Assembly: GCA_001953115.1 (NCBI GenBank)
Contig: LSSL01007797.1
Location: 42,655 to 106,654, forward strand
Source of the DNA: Smittium mucronatum
Taxonomy: Eukaryota > Kickxellomycota > Harpellomycetes > Harpellales > Legeriomycetaceae
Reading direction: 5' to 3'
DNA: 64,000 nucleotides
A model generated the notes under the pieces. The model saw only the letters and a program-made list of their open reading frames with translations, was not told the DNA's origin and searched no databases. Below, one piece after another: positions 3,001 to 50,518 of the stretch; positions within the stretch are counted from its first letter, which is position 1; each line of letters begins with the position of its first letter. The position numbers and the translations under genes were made by a program.

Positions 3001-6000
3001 TATTTTTAGTAATTAAATAAGAATAGAAATTTTCAATCACGTTATTGCAGTTTTTATAAGAGTTCACTTTCGTTAATCTTTCTCATCTTAAATAAAACTT
3101 AAATTTTAAAAATATATACGTCAATATAATTTTATTAAGTTTATTTTTTAAATCAGGACTTAATTTAAAATAAAAATATCTATGTTGTCATACGAAGAAA
3201 CCGTGATTTACGATATGAAATATTGCTAAATCATATTGAGAAATACCACAAGCGATAAAAGTATAACCTAATTGACTCATTGTTGAATAAGCAATAATTT
3301 TTTTTATATCATTTTGAGTTAATGCCATTAATGCAGCAAATAATGCTGTTAATGAACCTACACATAATATTAATATTAAAGCTGTTGAACTGTATTCCAA
3401 TATAGGTGAAATTCTAATTAATAAATAAACACCAGCTGTTCAATTTGTTCATTATAGATAAATTTTATCTATAATATGCCATTATTCTCATAATGGTTCG
3501 GACTATATTATTACCTTTTTTTTATATCTTTTTTTTCTAATTTTTAAGGTATTTTGCGTTTAGTCTCTGAGGATCCATATTTATTAATTGTTTCCTGCTA
3601 ATTAATCTTATTGAAAAATATTAAATAATTTGCTTGTTTATTAAAAATGGATTAAGAATTTAAATATAATAAAAATCCAAGATCATACCAATCTTAAATC
3701 TAAAATCCATATAATTTTTCAAAAATAAGATTTTTTTATTAATCTCCTAAAAAGTATTTTGGTATTAATAAACTTATTTAATTTAGATTTTTCTAGCATA
3801 TAGCAAAAAATTTTTTTTTATTCTTTTTCAAGAATATAAGGCAACATATAATAATTCAATATAATTATATTTAAGAATAAAAAAGTAATAATAAAGTTTT
3901 AGAATTATTAATATCACCTAATTTTTTTTATTCATTCTATGTCCATTTAACATCTATTATTTTATTATAAATTATAGTAATAAATACTGTTTTTTTTACC
4001 TCTATTTATATATTTATATCTAAAATTTTCTTAATGTATTCATTCTATTATATATTTTATCTAATTCATTAAGACCTTCTACTGTTAAATGTTTTTTATC
4101 ATGAATAAGTTTTATACCTATAGCAAAATCGTTAAAATTTAATAATTTAGAACCATGTAAAGGATTAGTAATAAAAAATGGAATAATAATGTTATTTAAA
4201 TCACTAATATTAGATACTGAAATATTATAAACCTCTCTATCTTTAGATGGATTTACTATATTACCACAACCTAAAGTTTTTATAATTCTTTTTAATAGTG
4301 ATAAATCTCTAATATGTTGAGAAATTCTAAATTGTGGATAATAAGATATATCTAATCTCATTTTAGGTGCTTTTATTCTACCTAATCCAAAACTTCCATC
4401 TGCATTTATAAAACCTGCTATCCAATTAGTAGGTAAAAGTTTATTTATATCAGTACTAAATTTATTATCATATTTATATGGTATAATATTAGGATAAAGG
4501 TTTAATACTGATTTACTTAACCCTTTAGGAAATAATAATTTTATGCTTAATATGGTTAAATAACCTTCTTTGATTAAATGTTCTTTTTTTATTAAAATAT
4601 TATAAACTTTACACCATAATATAAAACTTATATATTTAGTAGATTGTAATGAATAATTAATAAAATGATCTATAACCATTGATAATGAAGATAATGAACT
4701 TATTTCATACATTAATATATTTTTATGTTTAGATATACTTCCTTTATCATTAAAAAATTTTTTTAGTTTATTAGCTAATATTAAATTATCAGGATTATTA
4801 TATAATGATACTGAAAAAACTAATGTAGGATAATATTTATATTTATAATTTTTAGTTTTTCTTAATCTTATAGCAAATGATCCATCTCCATCAATTAATC
4901 CTGTTACATACCAAGGATGTAATAAATTATTATCCAACACGTCTTCATCGTGGTTGGATTTACTATATATAATAAAATTACCATTATTCTTTATATTTTT
5001 TAATCTTTTAAATATATAATTATATTTTATTATTATTAACTTTACCATAGTGGCAGCGTGTAATAAAGCTGAAACTGGAGTAGGCAATAAATTTATGAAC
5101 TTTTATTCATAATTGGACTATATCTTCAAATTTTTAAATATTAATCTAACAATATTTAAATATAATTGTCTTGCGTGTAATCTCTGGGAATCCTTAAAAT
5201 ATATTTAAAATATTTACGGTTTTCTGCTGATTGTCCTTTTATCTATCAGATTTTTACTAATATTTATACGATCTGATATCAGATCGTACTCATACTTTTA
5301 GCTTTAGGAGTTTCCAGCATATAGCAAGATTTAAGGAGGGACCTTTTAATTTTATTTTTATATATACCCTATCAATATTATAATATTAATTATTTTTTTT
5401 TTTACTATTTTATCCTAATTTATATCTCATTTGGGAGTGCATATAAGGTAATACTAATTTACTTAATTTTAATAAATTTTCTTCTTTAGCACTAAATCTT
5501 ATTCTAAAATATTTCTTATTCCTTTTATTTTTATTAGCTATTAATCCTAATTTAAAATATAATAATTCAATAAGATAATCTATTTCAATTTCTGTAAAAG
5601 ATTCTGTACAAAGATAAATTGTTTTATTTTTATATATACCCTATCAATATTATAATCTTTATTATTTTTTACTATTAAATCCTAATTTATACTTCATTTG
5701 AGGATGCATATAAGGTAATATTAAATTTCTTAATCTAAATAAATTTTCTTCTTTATTACTAAATCTTATTCTAAAATTTTTCTTATTCCTTATATTTTTA
5801 TTAGCTATTAATCCTAATTTTGAATATAATAATTTTATAAGAAAATCTATTTCCATTTCCGTAAAAGATTCAGTACAAAGAATTATTGTTTTACTTTGAT
5901 TATGCCAATAACCATCACCCATAATCCAGAATGCTAAAGTTACACCTGTAAAATTATCTATAATACTTTTAGGCACTATTTTTATTCTTTTACCTAAATT

Positions 6001-9733: not shown

Positions 9734-10411
9734 TTAGTCATTAGTACTAGCTTCTAATTTAGCATCCTTAATTAGCTTATTAATTTTAATAGCCCGAAAT
9801 TTAGTGTTTATATCTTTGGGATTAGGGAAACCTAAATTAGTTAATGTAAGATCTAAAAAGTTACCTACTAGTGGAGTGAATATTAGATTAATTATCGAGT
9901 GAGTCAATACTAAATTAAAGCCAGTACCTAAACCTATCACACCACCTACAATACAAACACTTCTAAATAAGCCAAAAGTTTACCTGAAATATAAATATAG
10001 TCATAAATAGGATTATTACGATAAGTAAATTAACTAGTGAATATAGCAATATAAAATAGATAATCTGCTTTAATAAAAGAAATAACTATTTTAAAGAATA
10101 ACTGTAATAAGGCCTAAATTTTTACAGTATAGTAAATATATTCATAACCTAAATAAAAATGAAAAAAAGAATTCAAGGTATACATATCCCACCTATTATC
10201 TTAAATATATAAATATGAATATAATTTTTATATTTAAGGTGGTAAATAGGCCAGATTACATTTTAAAAATTGGGATCTAAATTTGAGTGGTTAAACTCAA
10301 ATCTGATATCTTAATTAGATTTGTGGAGGGGGTATTAGAATCATTAATACTTGTAACTTTACGAATTTCATATAAATAATGTAAAGGTGTAGGTGTAGAG
10401 TCCATTCTAAA
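9734..10411 (-). pseudogene. displaced, decayed second copy of the cox1 3' end and tail module
   Basis: It starts directly after the cox1 stop with AATTTAGAATGGACTC, the same string found inside cox1's own C-terminal coding region, and repeats [68 protein letters not shown] and TPLVGNFLDLTLTNLGFPNP, with many stops and frameshifts. Only the last 68 codons (9734-9940) remain open. It records a tandem duplication or replacement of the cox1 3' end. Confidence 0.8.
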
Positions 10412-10412
10412 T

Positions 10413-26879
<16,467 letters not shown>

Positions 26880-27238
26880 ATTAGGTCATAATAATTATAA
26901 GGTTGAAGAATTAGATAAAAATATAGTGAAGGTAAAACATATAAAATGAAATATGGATAATATGAAAATAATAATAAATGGATTGATAAAAAAATTAATA
27001 ATGGTTACATAAGATATTATGAAGGTATAGAATTTATAATAGAAGATAATGTTAATAAAATAATAAAGGTTTATTATTTTTATCAATAAAAGAAATAAAA
27101 ATTGAACAAAATTTAGATATAAATATTGGAACTATAGATTTTGAAACATATTCTGATAAATTAGATAAACAAATAGTATATGCAGGTGGTTGGAAAATAA
27201 AAGATAAATATAAAAATGAAAAGGTAAAATATGAATAA
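26880..27238 (+). pseudogene. family-B DNA polymerase fragment (linear-plasmid type)
   Basis: Plus strand, opposite to cob and cox1. The clearest part is SIKEIKIEQNLDINIGTIDF followed by ETYSDKLDKQIVYAGGWKIK at 27095-27230: the DFE of exonuclease motif I of plasmid-encoded, protein-primed family-B polymerases. Upstream, KWIDKKINNGYIRYYEGIEF in a neighbouring frame looks like the same protein. The fragment is frameshifted and ends after about 120 codons. Confidence 0.65.
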
Positions 27239-27290: not shown

Positions 27291-30200
27291 TTATTTATTT
27301 GAATCCGATAATTTTTTTAATTCGGATAATAATTTCGAATTTTCTAAAATAAATCTATCCTTTGTAATTTGAGATAAATTACTATTAGATAATTTAGTGT
27401 TTATATCATCAAAATCACTCTCTATAGATCTTAAAAAATCTGGTTTAGGATAACCCAGAGAATTTAATATCGAGTCAGTAACTCCTACTATTTTTGGTAT
27501 AAATAATTCATTTCTACCCGATTTAACTAAAATAAAATCTAAACCAGTTGAAAGTCCTATTCCTGTAGCTAACACGGCTCCACCACCACAAATTCCCTTT
27601 ACACATAAAAGTATTTTCCCCGTACCACTGATAATATAATTTATAGGTGAATTCCTATAAGTTAATATATCTGTAAAAAATACTATATATATTATGTAAA
27701 AAAATCTAATTAAATTAATTATACTTAATAATAATAATTGTAATACTGCCATGATTAATACTAAATTATTAATTAATTCAAACCCACTATCATACTTAAT
27801 AAACATTAGAGGGATACATATACCACCTATAACTCTAAATACCCTAATCAGAGGATTGGTATATAATTGCTCCAGTATAGGTGGTAAAGTAGGACAATTC
27901 CATCCCCTTTTTAATCCGATCATTAATTGTGTACTAATACTCATTTCGCTTACACCTCCTAGATTATTTTTACTAGAAGGATGAATAGAAAAATTTCCCA
28001 CTTTTGGTGGAAGGGTATTAGAATTAGTTACAATATCAGCTAAAGTATTTTCTAAAATACTAACAAAAGGAATAATTATTAAAAAATAAGAGAAATAATA
28101 AATAGAGGCAATTTGTCCAATAAAAATAAAAGGTTCTTCAGCATGATTAGCACCGATCCAACCTAAAATAAAAAAATTAGCAACAAATAACCAAAAGAAA
28201 AATTTTAAAAAAGGTCTAAATAGTATACTTCTAATATTACTAATATCTAAAAATGGAACTAATAATAAAATAAAAATACCCATTAACATACCTATTACAC
28301 CCAATAATTTATTAGGTATAGATCTTAAAATAGTATAAAAAGGTAATAAATAAAATTCAGGTACTCAATATATTATGTAAAAATATTTAAATTTTTACCA
28401 GTAAATTTCTTTACTGTTTAGACTATGTCATTAATCCGTTTTATACAAAACGCTAATTAAAGGGCTTTCGTGGATAGATTATTGTTAACATTACTCACTA
28501 TCTAGTCGTTGAACGTTTATATAACGATTAAAATGTTGTTATATACTTCGCTGCAAGTTAGCATGGAATATTATTAATATTCTTTAGCTTTTCTTGACAA
28601 TTAACCCTTTTTTGTTAATTACAATTAAGTAATAAGCGACAATAATAAAAAAAGAGTTAGGTAGTAATTGGATTATAAAAAAAAGTAATTTTTTAACCAT
28701 TGGTCTGTTTCGTTATTTTTATATTTAATAGCTTCTATTAATGCTAAATCTTCACTTTTATATGTTTAAAAAAAAAAAATATTTTCTTTTAGGTTTTATT
28801 TTAAATAAAGATGGTAAATAAACTGACCAAGCTTTATTTTTATGTAAATGAATATATGTATTAGTATCATTATTCATATTAATTTTATCTATCCAATAAT
28901 TAATAGGATGTTTAAATTTTACGTTTAGCTTAGAATAATAATAATATAATTATTTTATTTTTATAATATTAATATACGATAAGGATTTATGTAAATATTT
29001 TAAAGACTTTTTAATAGAATTAAATTGAGAATATTTAAAGAATAAAAAAGAATCAAAGTTACGGAGTAACTTGGTTAATTTAATAATATTTTCTTTTCCT
29101 TCAATAGTTAATACATATAATTTAGATTTAACAATAAAAGAAGATATACCATATAAAGATAAATTATTATTAATTTTTTGAAATAATAAAAAATTATCAT
29201 CAGTAATTTTTTGACTAATAATAAAAATCGATCGGTATAAACCATAAATCATTTTTATGATTATTTCAAATTTTTAAAGAAAAATAACCATCACCTAAAT
29301 AAAAACCTAATAAAAAAAGTAAAGAAATATCATTATGATTATCTTTAAAATTTTTATTATATAATTGAAAGTTACGTAGTAACTGAGGTTCTTTTATACC
29401 AAAAATTTTTAATAAATTATCAGATAAATTTATTTTTCTTTTAGAATTATCAACTAAACTATAAGCTAAAAAATATAAATTTTTGATTGACTGATCCTCA
29501 TTATAATTTTTTTTTTTCATTATATTATATATTTCTCTTCACTTCGTTCAGTCTTTATATTTATCTCCATAAGTTAAAGATAAATAAGGAATAACCCGAG
29601 TTAATATAAAATTCCAATTTCAAGATTGAATTCTTATATGCCATATTTTTGATTTATTTTTAGATAAAACCCAAATAAAATTATTATCCAACGTTATGGA
29701 TAACGTTGTTAATAATTTTATACTATCTAAACTAGCATTTTGAGATATATATATTATTGGTCGAAATTTTAATTTAGTTTGAAAATAACCCCCAATATGT
29801 CCTTCAGCTTGAAAAATCCATTAATAAAAAGATGAAAAAATTCAGAATATTCATTTTTAGTATTATTTATTTTTTGTGTTGTTTCTTTTTTAATTTTTTC
29901 AATTAAAATTAATAATTCTGTTTTGGTTATTTTTTCTTTTTTATCGCTCATGAGCAGATATCCATTTTATTTATCCAATACTTCCTAACCTCTTCTTTTT
30001 ATTTATAATTAAAACCATCGCTAAAGGAGTAACTAAAGGATTACCAGGTATATAATTATCTGGTTCTACTAAAGAATTAGGAATAAAAAAAACAAAAAAA
30101 GAAAATATTAGTAAAAAAACAAAAAATCCTACATAATCTTTATAAGAAAAATAAGGATGAAAAGGTATTTTATCTATATTACTACTTATACCTAATGGAT

Positions 30201-33200
30201 TATTAGCTATTCGCTCCCTGCGGATTGCATCCTTGGAAGCTAAAAATTAATTTCGACTGTACATTTAATATTAAATAAAATATGAATAAACATATTTAAA
30301 TTATAAGTTAATATCCATAAGTGACCCAGTCTGTAGTGATTATATCATATAATTTACTTATTAAAAATATATATAACCAAGGGTCTTAAATTATAAAATA
30401 GGTATTATATATATAATTTTTTAACCCTTTTCACTTATATTGCCAGTTAGATAAACTCTAACAAAATGGTTATCACCATTTAAATATTAAAAATATAATT
30501 AATTAAAATTATTAATAATACTTCGACTATTTTTTATAAACCTAATTTATAATACATAGATTTATGAAAATAAGGTAAGACTATATTACGTAATAAAATA
30601 ATAGAATCTGCTTTAATATATAATTGATATTGATTAGATTTTTTAAATTGATGAATTGAACATTTTAAATTCCATTTATTTTCTAATGTAGATTTTAACA
30701 GATCTATTTCATCTTTTGTAAATGAATTAGTAGCTATTCAAACACCTGGTTCTTTCCAACCACCATCATCCATAATCCATATAGCTAATGCCATAGGTGT
30801 TAAATATTCATGTATATTTAAAGGGACTATTTTTTTTTTATTATTATAAAATAATTTATATAACCATAATAAATTTTTATAACTATATGTATAAAATCTA
30901 TAAGATTTATATTTTTTATTCTTTAATAAAATTTTAGATGAAAAAGGTAAATTATTATTAGTTAAACCTCTTTTATTTAAATATTCATATAACCAAAATA
31001 GATATTCTTTATGTATAATACTTTGTTTAAATATAAATCTTACCCCACCATTTGATAATCTTTCTCCATGACAATCCCCCAATAATGAACCCACCAACAA
31101 AGACACTATGTCTTTGTTGTGAGGTCCTATTCTATTTTTAGCTTTAATATTAGGTAATATAAAAGCTAAAGTAGGAATTTTTGAAAAAAAATCAAATAAA
31201 TTCAAATCTTTAAAATAATATATAAAATTATATTTATATAAAAATTTAGGGCCTATATTTAATGACCCATTTTGATGTAAACCTATTAAATGTAATATTA
31301 CTACAGCAGCTAAAATAAAAGGTAATAAATAATGTAAAGAAAAAAATCTATTAATAGTAGCATTACTTACACTATAATTACCCCATATTAAATTTACTAA
31401 ATCTGAACCAATCCAAGGAATTGCTGAAAATAAATTAGTAATAACAGTAGCCAAATTTTTAAAAGTCCGTTGACTTTCTTGTACTTTTTTTGATCAAATT
31501 TTATGATTTAGTTTTTACTTAAAAAAGCCTTGAAAAATTAATTTAAATTAATTTAAAAATTCCGACTGTACATTAAGCAACATTTCAGTCACCTATTATT
31601 GAACCAGTCTGTTGTGATTTTATATTAAACCGATAGTCTTGAAATATATCTTGACTTATTTTCAATAATATAGCCTTATAATCATATTATTATTTTTAAT
31701 ATAAATTACATAATAATAAAAAAAAATAGGGAGGCCCACACATTGATCATTGATCCCTATTTTTAACCGACGTATAAGACTATGGTACAATTTATAATAT
31801 AAATTTGTATTTCATACTTGGATCTAACCAAGGACTAACTAATTTAAATATTGTAGATATAGATTTTTTATGAATATATAAACAATATTGATTTATACTA
31901 CCTGTTTTATGTATTGAAATGGTTAGGTCATATTTCTTTTTTAAAATATTTACTAAATATTCTAGTTCAATAAAACTAAAATTATTAGTAGCTTCCGGTG
32001 GATACCGTCCGCCGAAGCGTACGGCTAATTTTAAACCTTTTCCACTTCTAGAACCATCATCCATAATCCAAATAGCTAATGCTAAAGGAGTTAAATATTG
32101 TTCAATAATTCCGAATGGAATTCTTTTTTTATTATTCTTATAATAAATTTCTTGAAAATAATTTAAACTAGAATAAGTCCAAGTTTTAAATCTTATTACA
32201 TATCTAATTGTATTTTTTTTACCTGTTCTTGATTTTATTTCAGGTATTTTAGGATTACAATAACCTTTTAAAGATATTTCATTATGTAACCATAATAAAT
32301 AACTACTATTAGTATGTTCTTGCTGAAAACAAAGTCTACTACCCCTTCCATGACGTTCTAAATAACCATCTCCTAATAAACTACCTGTTAATATAGATAA
32401 TATATCAATATTATGAGGTCCGATCCTACGGATGGAAGGTATTATAAATTGTAATGAACGTGCCACGCGCTCATCTATGATTACATCAGAATCAATAGCC
32501 ATTTTGGGCAAATATTCACCCCATAATGACATTTGCATATAATATTAAACTCTTTGACTATTCATATTATCTTTAATTTTTCTGATAATATTTAACCCAT
32601 TTTGTGTAAGATGTTCTTTATTAATAAGCATATTTAATATAATTTTCCAATCATTATAATCTTTTAATTTTTTACTTTCTAAAGGATATAGATCAAAATG
32701 AGGTATTATATAATTTTTAATACTATTAAGATCACTAACGACATATACACAAATAGTTAAACCATAAGAATTATAAACCTTACCAGTTTTAAAATAATTA
32801 CTAATTTTTAATAATAATTCATAATCTATTTTATTTTGAGTTATTCTTAAAGATAAAGATATAAAATAACCTAATTTTAAATCTTTTCTTTTTGATATAT
32901 TTACTGCAAAATGTCCTTCTCCATCAATAAATCCTGTAACCCACCATGGATTAATAATTTTAGATGAAATAATATTCGTATTATTATTATTTATAGATTA
33001 TAAAATATTAAAAGATAAAATAAAATTTAAAACTATTAAGTCCAGATACTATGTATCTTATAATTAAAGACATTTATGATGTTATAAAGCATATTATATA
33101 GGACTATATTTTTTCATTTTTATAAAATTTCTTCACGTATAGTCTCTGAAGATCGCAAAGTATTATATACTTTGCTTTCCTGCTGATTGTCCATTGTAAT

Positions 33201-36339: not shown

Positions 36340-37180
36340 AAAAAAAAAATAAACCTTAGTGTAAATAAACTATAATCCATTATCCAGAATATATTAATAA
36401 TTAATCCTCTTATTTTTTTATTCTTATGTAATTTATTTTCCTTACTATGCTTATGCTTAATTTTTTTTTTTCTTACTATGTTTATACTTTTTTTTTTTTT
36501 TTTTAGATCAATGGATTTTTAATTCTATAATTATTACAGGTGTTACTATTGTTCTATGAATGACATATTAACTATAACACTAGCTGTACTTAATCGTTCT
36601 TTTTTTAATCATTTTTTAAGTTATTAATTAGATTTTAAAAGGATATTTTTATAATTGAATATTTAAATACATTACGTATATGTAGAAAGGATATATTTTC
36701 ATATATTTTATTTAATCTCTTTAAAATAGATGTTTTGTTAAAAGGGGGGAAAATATTTTTAAACTTTTTTAACTATAATATTAAATTTTTACTAATTTTT
36801 ATTGACCAAGCTATTTATAATCGTTGGATTTATATTTTTATTGTAAGTTTATATTTAAATTTTTATGATGTTTCATAAGAATTCATTTATTTTATATTAC
36901 ATATTTAATGATCCATTCCATTTTTTTTTTAATATATTTCCGTTATATTCATTACATTACTTATTCAAAAATATTTTAATTATTCTTAGTGTAAATATTT
37001 AAGGATCATTATAATCTTTAGCTATAATGTCAGGGTTGTAATAATTTAATAAAGGTTATCAATATAAGTTATAAATAATAAAAAATAAATTAACCAACCC
37101 GATCTTATTCTTTATATTTTTTTATTATTATTAATTTATTAAAAGCAGCCCATAGGGTACTGTTATTAATATTAATTTTT
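36340..37180. other. cob-trnR spacer
   Basis: AT-rich, with T-runs near 36490. A plus-strand frame of about 80 codons at 36640-36880 (reads GGKIFLNFFNYNIKFLLIF) has no recognisable family and may be chance or an old remnant. Confidence 0.5.
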
Positions 37181-37252
37181 ACTCGTTAATGGAATTGAAC
37201 CATTATCTATAATTTAGAAGATCATTGCTTTATCCTATTAAGCTAAACAAGT
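37181..37252 (-). tRNA. trnR(ucu): tRNA-Arg (UCU)
   Basis: Acceptor ACTTGTT/AACGAGT, anticodon loop CTTCTAA, T-arm AATGG-TTCAATT-CCATT. Stands alone between cob and trnV. Confidence 0.85.
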
Positions 37253-39353
37253 TATACGTAGTATCTGATATATATAATTAAAAATATAAGCTTATTTATA
37301 ATAATTTATTTATAAATTATTGGCTTTAATATTTTAATAAAAATTAAAAAAAGCTATATTACACCTATTAAATTAAATATAATATATGAATATTAAAAAT
37401 AAGTTAATTTAAAAATTTTATCAATATATAATTTTTAAAATAATAAAAGGACAAAAATATTAATAAGATAATCTATAAGTAGTGTTAATTTTATATTAAA
37501 TAAAATTAATAATAAAGTGATTATATATTTAATTAATAATATGAATATTTAAAATTAAAAACAGTGTTTTTAATTTTATCTTAACTGTATTATAAGTACC
37601 TAAACATACATAAAATATTATTTTTAATTACTTAAAAAAGTCCATTAGCTTTGCTAAAATAATTTGTTAATCCTTTTATAAATATATTTTTCCAAATATA
37701 TTTAATTTATTGATGGTACATATTTTTTTTTTGTTTATATTTATGAATTGGTTAATATTTTTTAGAGATAAACAGGCTTAATGTTACGTAATTATATTTT
37801 TATTTTTAATTATATATTGTTAATAAGGTCTACATTAAGAAACAAAGACAAAGATTTAAAATTTTACTAGATTCGACCCTTACCCTGAACATTTAAATTA
37901 GTATAATATTATATTTATGTAAGTTAACACCCTTCCCACAATATAAAAATATATTATACTAAATCCATTGATTTAATATTATTAAAAATATAAATAAAGG
38001 GCATTTATATCTACCTTATAAAATTAAAAATTAATATATTTAGCAGTTAGCTATTAGTAGGAGATTATATCCAATGGAAGATCTTATTTTTAAATATTTC
38101 CTTATATAAAACCTTCCTTATATTATTTTACTGTATATCATTTAAAATATTATTACCAGTACGTAATACGGACTATTATATTATGACCTATTTATTTATA
38201 TTATTTTATAAATTTTAAAATTTTTTATTAAATTACCTAAGATCCACAATTATATTAATTAATATATCCATATCTAGGGTACTTATTAAAATCATTATAT
38301 ATTTATATTAACTTAAAAATTTTATAAGGTTGTAAAAAATCATTTATATTTTTGGATATTTAATTATTACAGGACTACAAGTGGCTAAATAACCGTTGTC
38401 ATTGACAACCGAATTTATTAAATAATAAATTGATCTTCAATTTATTTATCATAAATATTATTTTATTATATAATGGTAATATAATATTATTTTCATCTAT
38501 AATTTTTTTAATTATAAAATCTTTACTTATTTACAGTATTCATTAAGATTTTTACTAAAATTTTAAGTAAAAATACAAAAGATAAACACAAAATAAGCTT
38601 TAATATAGGTAAAAGTTTTCCATAGTAAGGATAAAATTTATTAAATTTATTATATATATAACCGTAATCTAGTTATAGATATATTAGAAGATGGAAAAAT
38701 TAATCAATAGCATATATATATTATCTGGAAAATTATAAGTTCAATAGCCTCTAATAGATTATTTATTTATAAAGGTACTGAACGTAGTAAAGAAAGTAGA
38801 ATGTAAATATCTATAATTATGAGATATTTGTGTAATGATGATAATGTATAATATTTAAATAATAATGGATAGATGAGGATAAATATAAAAATAATATAAA
38901 AAATATATAATAGATAAATATAATAAACAAATAATGTATAAATATTTAAGGGTGTTCTCTATCTATATGAATGGATCCGCTAATATAAAAGGATTAAATT
39001 ATGATAAACCCTCATCTAAGATGGGAAATGATAATATACCATTATATATAATGAATGATAAAAGTTATTTTAAAAATGAATAAAAGAATACTAAACGTAG
39101 TGAAGAGATAACATTTAAATGGGCTAGATATTATTAATTGTAATATAATTATATAAAAAAATTATGATTAAATAATAATAATGGATTTAAATACTAAAAA
39201 TTTAGATAAATATTATATAATAAAAACTAGGATATAATAATAATTTATTATTATCTATAAATGATAATAAAGTGTATAAAATCTAAAACATCTGAAGAAA
39301 TACCTAACTATATAAAAATTGTATTAATATATATTATTTTTGATATATTTTAT
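37253..39353. other. trnR-trnV spacer
   Basis: About 2.1 kb of AT-rich DNA. The plus strand has coding-like but stop-ridden stretches at 38640-39150 (YNRNLVIDILEDGKINQ; FKGVLYLYEWIR), perhaps plasmid polymerase debris. A 44-nt segment near 38041-38085 resembles 45888-45930. ACTGAACGTAGTAAAG (38768) recurs as ACTAAACGTAGTGAAG (39089). Confidence 0.5.
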
Positions 39354-47975: not shown

Positions 47976-49505
47976 ATGTTATTATTATTATTATTAGTTC
48001 CAATTATAGGATCTTTAATTGTTTTAACGATTAATAATACTTTATTAATCAAAAAAGTAGGTTTATTTACAAGTATTATAGAATTTATAATTGTAATAAT
48101 GATCTGGATAGTATATGATTATAATAATCCAGATTATGTATACACACAATTATTCGGAAATATAAGATTTGGTATAGATACTATATCATTATTATTTATT
48201 ATATTAACTGCTTTTATAATGCCAATAGCAATATTAGCTGGTTGGGGAATAAAAGAAAAAATAAAAGAATTTATAGTATTATTATTATTATTAGAATCAA
48301 TATTTATTTTTATTTTTACGTCATTAGATATTGTTATTTTTTATATTTTTTTTGAAAGTTCTTTAATACCAATGTTTTTTTTAATAGGTTTATATGGTAG
48401 TGATCCACAAGGTATGTATAAAGGAATTAAAAATAAAAAAAGAACTAGAATATATGCAACATATCAATTTTTTTTAATGACATTTGCAGGATCATTATTA
48501 ATGTTATTTAGTATATTAAAATTATATTCTTATTTAGGAACTACAGATTATTTATTAATATCAACATCTTATATTGATTATTATACACAATCTTTATTAT
48601 GGTTAGGGTTTTTTATTTCTTTTGCTATAAAAACACCACTTATACCATTTCATCAATGGTTACCTTTAGCTCATACTGAAGCTCCTTTAACTGGTTCAAT
48701 AATATTAGCTGCTTTGATGTTAAAATTAGCTACTTATGGGTTTATAAAATATTCTTTAATTTTATTTCCTTCAGCTTCTTCTTATTTTACTCCTTTAATA
48801 ATGACATTAAGTATAATAAGTCTAATTTATTCTTCTTTTTCTACTTTAAGACAAATAGATATTAAAAAAATTATAGCTTATAGTTCTATAGGTCATATGG
48901 CTATTATTATTTTAGCTCTTTTTAGTAATTCTTATCATGGTCTTTCAGGTGCTTTATTTTTTTCTCTTGCTCATGGTTTAACTTCTCCAGTTTTATTTAT
49001 TTGTGTAGGTATTTTATATGAAATATTTCATACTAGAACTTTACTTTATTTTAAAGGTCTTTCTATTTATCTTCCTTATTTCTCTTTTTTATTTTTTATT
49101 CTAATTTTAGCTAACATGTCTACTCCTTTAACTTCTAATTTTATTGGTGAATTCTTATCTTTTATCGGTATCTTTAAATTTAATTTATCTTTTACAGCTA
49201 TTCTAGCTACTTTTAGTATTATTATAGTACCTATTTATTCTATTTGGTTCTTTTCTCGTGGATTCTTTGGTTCTTATAGTCTTTATCTTCTATCTAATAA
49301 GGATTTTACTTTTAGAGATTTTCATTTAATTATCCCTCTTTTTCTAGCTGTTATTTTTACTGGTATTTTTCCAAATATATTTTTAGATATATTTGAATAT
49401 TCAGTATCAACAATACCAACATTATCTTTTGCAATAGTACCCTTTATAAAAAAATCAAATAATTTAGAAAAAAAAAAATTAATATTAAAAATAGATTGAT
49501 ATTAA
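47976..49505 (+). CDS. nad4: NADH dehydrogenase subunit 4
   Basis: Antiporter-like subunit of complex I, plus strand, no introns. 509 residues, ending I-D-W(TGA)-Y then TAA at 49503-49505; under the standard code it would stop two codons earlier. Conserved: FFESSLIPMFFLIGLYGS, TPLIPFHQWLPLAHTEAP (essential Lys and His region), GSIILAALMLKLATYGF, AYSSIGHMAIIILALFSN, LAHGLTSPVLFICVGILYE. ATG at 47976 follows an A-rich leader. A second long frame opens at 49463 and overlaps the gene's end. Confidence 0.96.
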
Positions 49506-49507
49506 TT

Positions 49508-50518
49508 TGAAAATTTTTATTAGTAATTAGTCTTATAAGTATTACAATATATATATATAGTAAGAATTTATTAATAAATTGTATAACTAATAGTTTAGTT
49601 AATTTATTTTTTTTATTTATAATATTATTTTACCTAGATGATTATAAATTATCAAAAGATATAATAATTAAAAATTTTCAAATTACTATTTTCATTATCT
49701 TTAGTATTTATATAATATATATTATATCATTTGAAAGGCTTTATAATTTAAATGATATTGTAACTTATATAGATTCGGAAGATCTAAAAGATGTAATAGC
49801 AAATAAAGATATTACTTTTAAAGGTAAAATAGTATTAAATGAAAAAGCTGGAGCTGAATTAGCAAAAGGAGTCTCAAATATGGCTGTTAATGTAGGATTA
49901 GGTACATGCGTTAGTGCTTTAGCCCTAGCAGCAAGTAAAGTACTAGTAAAAGCTTCAATACCACCAATTCAAAAAGTAAGTTTAATTGTTAGTAGTGGAG
50001 CGTTAGGTGTCATCGTAGATGAAGGAATTAATGCAATCAATACTCAAATATATGAAAAAAAGAGTATAAGTAAAGATTTAAATAATGAGATTAACCAATT
50101 ACCGGAAAATATTAATTTATTTGTAGATACTATAAAAAATATTTCTCCTTTAGAAACTTTATTAAATTGAAGTTACTACGTAACTTCAATATGTATTTGG
50201 TTATTATTTATTTTAATAATACAAATATCATTAAAAGTTTATGTTAATAATGAACCTAAATTAAATTTTATAGATTTAATAATACCTAATTATAGCAATA
50301 TAATTAAATTATATATATATAAATTAATTAAACTTAATAAAACTATGAATCTATTTTATTCTTTTTTAGCTTCCAAGGATGCAATCCGCAGGGAGCGAAT
50401 AGCTTTATTTTTATTATTAGTAGGTTTATTTGCTTCTCTTTATTTTTCATTAGAATTATGTAATAATCTTGATAGCCGTACCGGTAGGTACAGAAATTAT
50501 CATGGTAAAAATAATTAA
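49508..50518 (+). CDS. unidentified hydrophobic ORF directly behind nad4
   Basis: About 337 codons under code 4 (TGA at 49508 and 50168). The frame is +2 relative to nad4 and opens at 49463, inside it; there is no ATG before 49880 (MAVNVGLGTCVSALALAASK), so it starts at a non-ATG codon or arises by frameshifting from nad4. Features: three N-terminal membrane segments, a Gly/Ala-rich stretch (IPPIQKVSLIVSSGALGVIV), and two C-terminal membrane segments. Three foreign pieces sit in frame: a 23-bp palindrome (50167), a type B element (50368, adding [11 protein letters not shown]) and a GTACC-GGTA-GGTAC hairpin (50478). Function unknown; position and character recall the tail modules of Cox1 and Cob. 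Confidence 0.65.
50167..50189. repeat. 23-bp perfect palindrome inside an ORF
   Basis: TTGAAGTTAC-TAC-GTAACTTCAA. It supplies codons WSYYVTS, including the in-frame TGA, to the ORF behind nad4. Member of the GTTAC/GTAAC hairpin family. Confidence 0.85.
50368..50404 (+). repeat. 37-bp element, type B (copy 2)
   Basis: AGCTTCCAAGGATGCAATCC to GGGAGCGAATAGCT inside the ORF behind nad4. Removing 33 bp would leave TTT TTA GCT TTA TTT, a smooth membrane segment. Confidence 0.92.

Follow-up and report, generated by a model that had tools for sequence, protein, structure and literature searches.

The cob and cox1 genes end in related additional modules

The window analysed here is a stretch of 64,000 nucleotides from Smittium mucronatum, corresponding to bases 42655–106654 of a contig of 106,654 bp with a GC content of 22.4%, which forms part of a 73.8 Mb assembly. 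tRNAs and intron-rich respiratory genes are present in the window, and the contig is likely to be the mitochondrial genome of the fungus. In two of these genes, cob and cox1, the last exon continues in frame beyond the native end of the protein. The parts of both exons are given below in window coordinates, which are used throughout unless contig positions are named.

28023–28394, minus strand: native C-terminal part of Cob, last exon (PF00032; alignment with 8q1b_C)
27945–28022, minus strand: Cob linker, polar and rich in Ser, Asn and Pro (translation of the open frame)
27294–27944, minus strand: Cob tail module of 217 residues, stop codon at 27291–27293 (homology to the Cox1 tail and the family; AF2 mean pLDDT 84.7)
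11148–11489, minus strand: native Cox1 C-terminal part, last exon (alignment with 8ucj_a)
11097–11147, minus strand: Cox1 linker (translation)
10416–11096, minus strand: Cox1 tail module of 227 residues, stop codon at 10413–10415 (homology; AF2 mean pLDDT 83.5)

The frame of the last cob exon runs on the minus strand from 28394 to 27294 and closes with a stop codon at 27293–27291, with no stop between the native C-terminus and the tail. In a Pfam scan its Cob C-terminal domain reaches the final position of PF00032, and the exon can be aligned with the solved Cob chain 8q1b_C up to residue 382 of 387. Approximately 243 extra residues follow the native Cob end in frame. The last cox1 exon (frame 11489–10416, stop codon 10415–10413, minus strand) is likewise free of stops from the native end into the tail; it aligns with the solved Cox1 structure 8ucj_a up to residue 534 of 535, and is extended by approximately 244 residues.

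An earlier note on this DNA had described the Cob tail as a repeat of the Cox1 tail at about half identity, and this is borne out: a local alignment of the two scores 518, compared with 39.6 ± 5.8 and a maximum of 64 in 500 shuffles, and the identity is 53% over 180 residues and 49–50% over the whole module. The five motifs quoted for the Cob tail are all present. The span given for it, 27291–28000, starts at the correct position, while the similarity begins just outside its other end, at about 28007 (exon residue 130). Towards their C-termini, the two tails align poorly. As the note had suggested doing, both tails were subjected to structure prediction, and the AF2 models contain helices in the same main order (residues 3–16, 22–28, 31–48/49, 56–90, 100/102–141 and 148–162), with differing C-terminal helices; the two runs used alignments with common rows, and the models were compared by helix order. 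According to hydropathy analysis, each tail has about three stretches of membrane length.

The tail pair appears to be under constraint. Calculated on 228 codons, pN equals 0.350 and pS, which is near saturation, equals 0.642, and the resulting ratio of 0.545 lies below the minimum of 0.61 obtained in 400 neutral simulations. These simulations, run along one branch with a single base composition and a similar overall divergence, gave mean ratios of 1.08 and 0.98 for two settings of 200 runs each. When codon usage is scored against the core genes, the cob tail reaches 0.342 and the cox1 tail 0.139 in the reading frame, with values of −0.195 to −0.422 in the wrong frames. The tail frames look coding because the score is positive in frame and negative in the other frames. 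Their fit is nevertheless below that of every core segment (0.369–0.589 for eight segments left out in turn) and every intron ORF tested (0.375–0.591 for six), with the cox1 tail fitting least; three other membrane-type frames score 0.349–0.455. From the signs of selection, we infer that the tails are translated.

A decayed third copy lies behind cox1

A third copy of the tail, absent from the earlier note's account, is located at approximately 9750–10413. It is preceded by a duplicate of the cox1 3′ end.

11123–11213, minus strand: upstream copy of a 91-bp repeat, comprising the last native Cox1 codons and the start of the linker
10327–10413, minus strand: downstream repeat copy of 87 bp, whose first base is the final base of the cox1 stop codon
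9750–10326, minus strand: remains of a third tail module, broken up by stops, frameshifts and deletions

The 91-bp and 87-bp copies are distinguished by two substitutions and one 4-base gap, and the two cox1 copies abut with nothing between them. The modules that follow are much less alike. The intact cox1 tail and the relic agree in 71.5% of 551 nucleotide columns, and their identity at codon positions 1, 2 and 3 is 134/194, 153/192 and 120/195, respectively. As the relic agrees with the cob tail in only 58.3% of 521 columns, it is nearest to the cox1 tail; the modules of the cox1 and cob tails agree in 62.6% of 546 columns. The combination of a near-identical host part and a far more divergent module suggests either that recombination within the common 90 bp inserted a new cassette, or that a tandem duplication was followed by conversion. 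The locus also provides a natural control, in that stops abound in the unfused cox1 copy and the fused copy is open.

Searches of the organism's own assembly, in which the best candidates were scored, placed the module only at cob, at cox1 and in the cox1 relic, and gave no support for its occurrence on cox2, cox3 or nad2, for which the earlier note had proposed a test. Neither a free-standing version of the module nor a plasmid or moving agent turned up in this genome. On the contig, the native Cob end was detected only once, and the best match elsewhere had an E-value of 2.1.

The tails belong to a family of mostly short predicted proteins

Alignments place both tails in a family without a name, characterized by the motif R-I/V-F-R-V/I-I-G-G, followed by RNSP and K-G-x-C. 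A single-sequence search returned one relative and a three-sequence profile 24; a wider profile gave 174 hits, 120 of them among the matches listed. Both profile searches scored about 8,000 candidates. Most relatives are predicted proteins with a length of about 250 residues, beginning with the module. In pairwise BLASTP against the contig frames, 129 of the 130 fetched members match both exon-plus-tail frames with E-values of 1e-3 or better, with the match to the tail part counted apart from the exon match for five exon-fused members; the remaining protein, P0018, matches neither tail frame. Fewer than 25 residues precede the module in 100 of the 126 relatives with a placeable core motif. These 100 are taken as free-standing here, with the proviso that some of their starts may be internal to exon-fused frames.

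Two uncharacterized Termitomyces proteins, A0A386TYT4 and A0A2R4A3V2 (P0022 and P0117), were identified as family members by profile search. Proteins of this type have the RIFRVIGG, RNSP and K-G-x-C motifs and a similar core length, as in the tails, but they start at the module, whereas the window copies are fused behind complete Cob and Cox1. The two proteins are likely examples of the free-standing parent that the earlier note had suggested looking for in mitochondrial plasmids. A plasmid parent is not supported: no plasmid context was seen, and only a DNA polymerase B fragment lies elsewhere on the contig.

Apart from models of the cytochrome b hosts, no library model matched more than two of the members scanned (25 with Pfam, 45 with NCBIfam and 5 with PHROG), and the best stray matches were at 1.5e-4 and 1.8e-4. 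The family delineated here is thus one that the scanned libraries do not cover. No relative was found among IMG/VR viral contigs with four queries, or among GTDB genome contigs, which were searched with one query and with two peptide patterns and where candidates are selected through short peptide patterns. A comparison of the family profile with solved structures yielded 15 weak matches, the best with an E-value of 0.017. Neither the module nor tails on both cob and cox1 are described in the titles and abstract openings of the literature searched, which was mainly open-access.

Relatives carry the module behind different host exons

In five of the 130 fetched relatives the module lies in frame behind a 5′ exon of cox1 (P0038, P0041 and P0054) or cob (P0021 and P0079), with N-terminal matches to the exons of this contig at 1e-23 or better. 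The host context of the relatives was read from protein sequence alone, and on this basis the module of these five probably resides inside introns. Four further proteins, P0011, P0020, P0014 and P0114, have shorter starts that appear host-like by eye. The 590-residue frame of P0020 consists of such a Cox1-like start, the module and a LAGLIDADG endonuclease domain at its end; a frame of this kind is a possible vehicle for the module.

Two comparisons bear on the mobility of the module. P0041, fused behind cox1, and P0021, fused behind cob, share 121/133 residues in the module and 32/48 in the linker, and only 20/81 in the host exons, which are unrelated. P0041 and P0054, in turn, have identical cox1 exons (100/100) and similar linkers (39/50), but their modules agree in only 90/196 positions. 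Taken together, these comparisons indicate that the module changes hosts along with part of the linker, and they support its portability among hosts. Portability had been proposed in the earlier note together with insertion at gene 3′ ends. A preference for such ends is not supported: in the five proven relatives the module follows 5′ exons, and most of the others begin with the module.

In a tree of 114 of 132 rows (the remainder being too short or without the core motif), P0041 pairs with P0021 (99/92), and the two tails of the window likewise form a sister pair (99/93), in a region for which the program warns of long branches. A label test on this tree set nine rows labelled as fused, five of them proven and four assigned by eye, against the two window rows only, and therefore gives no count of fusion origins.

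The linker of several relatives contains the motif R-x-[FY]-S-[TSNI]. It is found ahead of the module in 10 of the 26 members in which this stretch has 25 residues or more (P0011, P0013, P0014, P0021, P0024, P0028, P0038, P0041, P0054 and P0079), including all five proven exon fusions. None of the 100 short-start members, which offer little room, has it ahead of the module, and it occurs within the module in four members. R-x-[FY]-S presumably resembles a mitochondrial processing peptidase site, and the linker motif could serve as the point at which the module is released from exon-fused proteins. A motif scan of the contig frames gave no match to R-x-[FY]-S in the cob or cox1 tail frames of the window.

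Possible origin of the tails

Mitochondrial translation needs 5′ signals. The reading that we favour, and consider reasonably probable, is that a passenger frame was copied in frame onto the 3′ ends of complete cob and cox1 genes and is expressed by riding on both of these essential genes. A frame for a small predicted inner-membrane protein, without 5′ translation signals of its own, would recombine within or between mitochondrial genomes, and upon landing in frame behind a respiratory gene it would be expressed at the level of that gene. In this lineage, one copy would have spread between cox1 and cob, in either direction; this would have happened long ago because the tails are sisters in the tree yet only about 50% identical. 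A second cassette or a tandem duplication at cox1 would presumably then have left the intact tail upstream and a decaying 3′ end and tail downstream. If translated, each tail would be inserted into the inner membrane together with its host, Cob or Cox1, and would subsequently either stay attached or be cut off. The step from a portable to a hitch-hiking frame is one that we infer, and it is made plausible by a chimera of atp9, nad4 and a membrane-type frame in the same contig (see below) and by published cases of exon-fused endonucleases.

Precedents for in-frame extensions are known in the form of Glomus hybrid genes, exon-fused intron ORFs and a Phlebia cob extension. The nearest published arrangement known to us is that of hybrid mitochondrial genes with mobile ORFs, which include Allomyces atp6 and Glomus atp6, atp9, cox2 and nad3 (PMC3630166). 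These resemble the tails in having 3′ additions in frame and, as at cox1, another 3′ end left downstream; the tails differ in that they lack an endonuclease, the host protein is complete before the tail, and the module itself is what has been added. For Erysiphe necator, in-frame fusion to the upstream exon is reported to raise the level at which intronic endonucleases are expressed and to make their fixation more likely (PMC8260586). There, too, a foreign frame extends a host exon, but the frames considered here lie behind the last exon, encode a predicted membrane protein and follow complete Cob and Cox1. Extensions of 43 and 122 residues on Phlebia radiata cob and nad6 are called putative non-translated (PMC4019555). 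As in the window, cob runs past its conserved end; the extensions are shorter than the module, and the likeness is one of arrangement.

The constraint on the tails, seen in pN/pS and in the simulations, leaves room for domestication: whatever their mobile origin, the tails might now work in complexes III and IV, through assembly, translation feedback or contacts between the complexes. Complexes III and IV associate in supercomplexes, and the Cob and Cox1 hosts belong to precisely these complexes. The restriction of the module, as a gene tail, to cob and cox1 in the own-genome searches and the long C-terminal helices predicted for the tails are also in line with such a role. However, the C-terminal parts align poorly, and most of the family are predicted proteins that start at the module; we regard domestication as unlikely. 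More specifically, sister domains on complexes III and IV, left by an in-frame passenger gene, might pair and tie both complexes together, a notion that we consider distinctly improbable. It is doubtful, too, that the old 3′ end was displaced by a new one that came with an endonuclease-driven mobile ORF, as in hybrid genes of the Allomyces and Glomus type. A second cox1 3′ end and tail directly behind an intact stop are indeed reminiscent of the displaced Glomus atp6 and cox2 ends (PMC3630166), yet a Pfam scan of both exons with their tails detected no LAGLIDADG or GIY-YIG domain, the duplicated host part is near-identical (91 versus 87 bp) and not foreign, the cox1 copies abut directly, and cob has no second 3′ end among the contig matches.

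The frames could also be open by chance or history, with no product being made. The Phlebia extensions provide a model for this (PMC4019555), and the codon fit of the tails is weaker than that of the core genes; set against the constraint, the open frames of about 240 codons at 22% GC and the decay of the unfused copy, untranslated read-through appears very improbable. We give almost no credence to an assembly artefact or chance similarity: repeats such as the 97 bp common to both contig ends could mislead assembly, but the Cob and Cox1 modules are too dissimilar in their bases, the cox1 repeats differ, and the similarity is far above that of shuffled sequences. Cob and Cox1 rank with the most highly conserved proteins of mitochondria. 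A common domain on the two, showing signs of selection and having relatives that exchange hosts and modules, would point to a class of mitochondrial passenger distinct from both introns and endonucleases, and the tails are a testable case for the tolerance or recruitment of added domains by organelle genes.

Other features of the contig

Contig 1–97, 29310–29406 and 106558–106654: 97-bp direct repeat in three copies, two of which are the contig ends
Contig 4919–5782, minus strand, outside the window: chimeric frame (gene names by eye and by self-comparison)
Contig 36973–37518, plus strand: DNA polymerase B fragment of organellar/viral type (PF03175, E-value 8.9e-30, one internal stop)

The repeat at both contig ends represents either a circular overlap or a repeat left unresolved. 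The chimeric frame is composed, in order, of the atp9 5′ region with the first ~15 codons, a copy of the nad4 3′ end and a membrane-type frame, the last of which is 36% identical to a frame at contig 22909–23766. No kinship of the tails with this chimera and its sister frame was found with a two-row profile, for which hhalign returned a probability of 1.2. In plant cytoplasmic male sterility, chimeric mitochondrial ORFs join a membrane-type frame to pieces of respiratory genes. Such ORFs resemble the atp9/nad4 chimera, whereas the tails are joined to complete essential genes.

PF03175 exceeds the cut-off only in the polymerase fragment, at a distance of ~15 kb to the cox1 copies and ~32 kb to the cob tail. 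A degenerate polymerase-like stretch beside and opposite the end of the cob tail (26961–27237, plus strand), called by eye from a motif, was not confirmed on checking.

At position 1544, on the minus strand, a GIY-YIG frame (PF01541) carries KRFYSN ahead of its catalytic domain; in a raw count, R-x-[FY]-S has eight matches, this one included, in contig frames of at least 100 residues. An open frame without an early ATG at 49463–50515 (plus strand) overlaps the nad4 end, out of phase with it, at a stretch of 11 A and may be a present or former nad4 tail. Near its end, it contains a 20-base exact copy of a cob exon start (50363–50382 versus 30227–30246).
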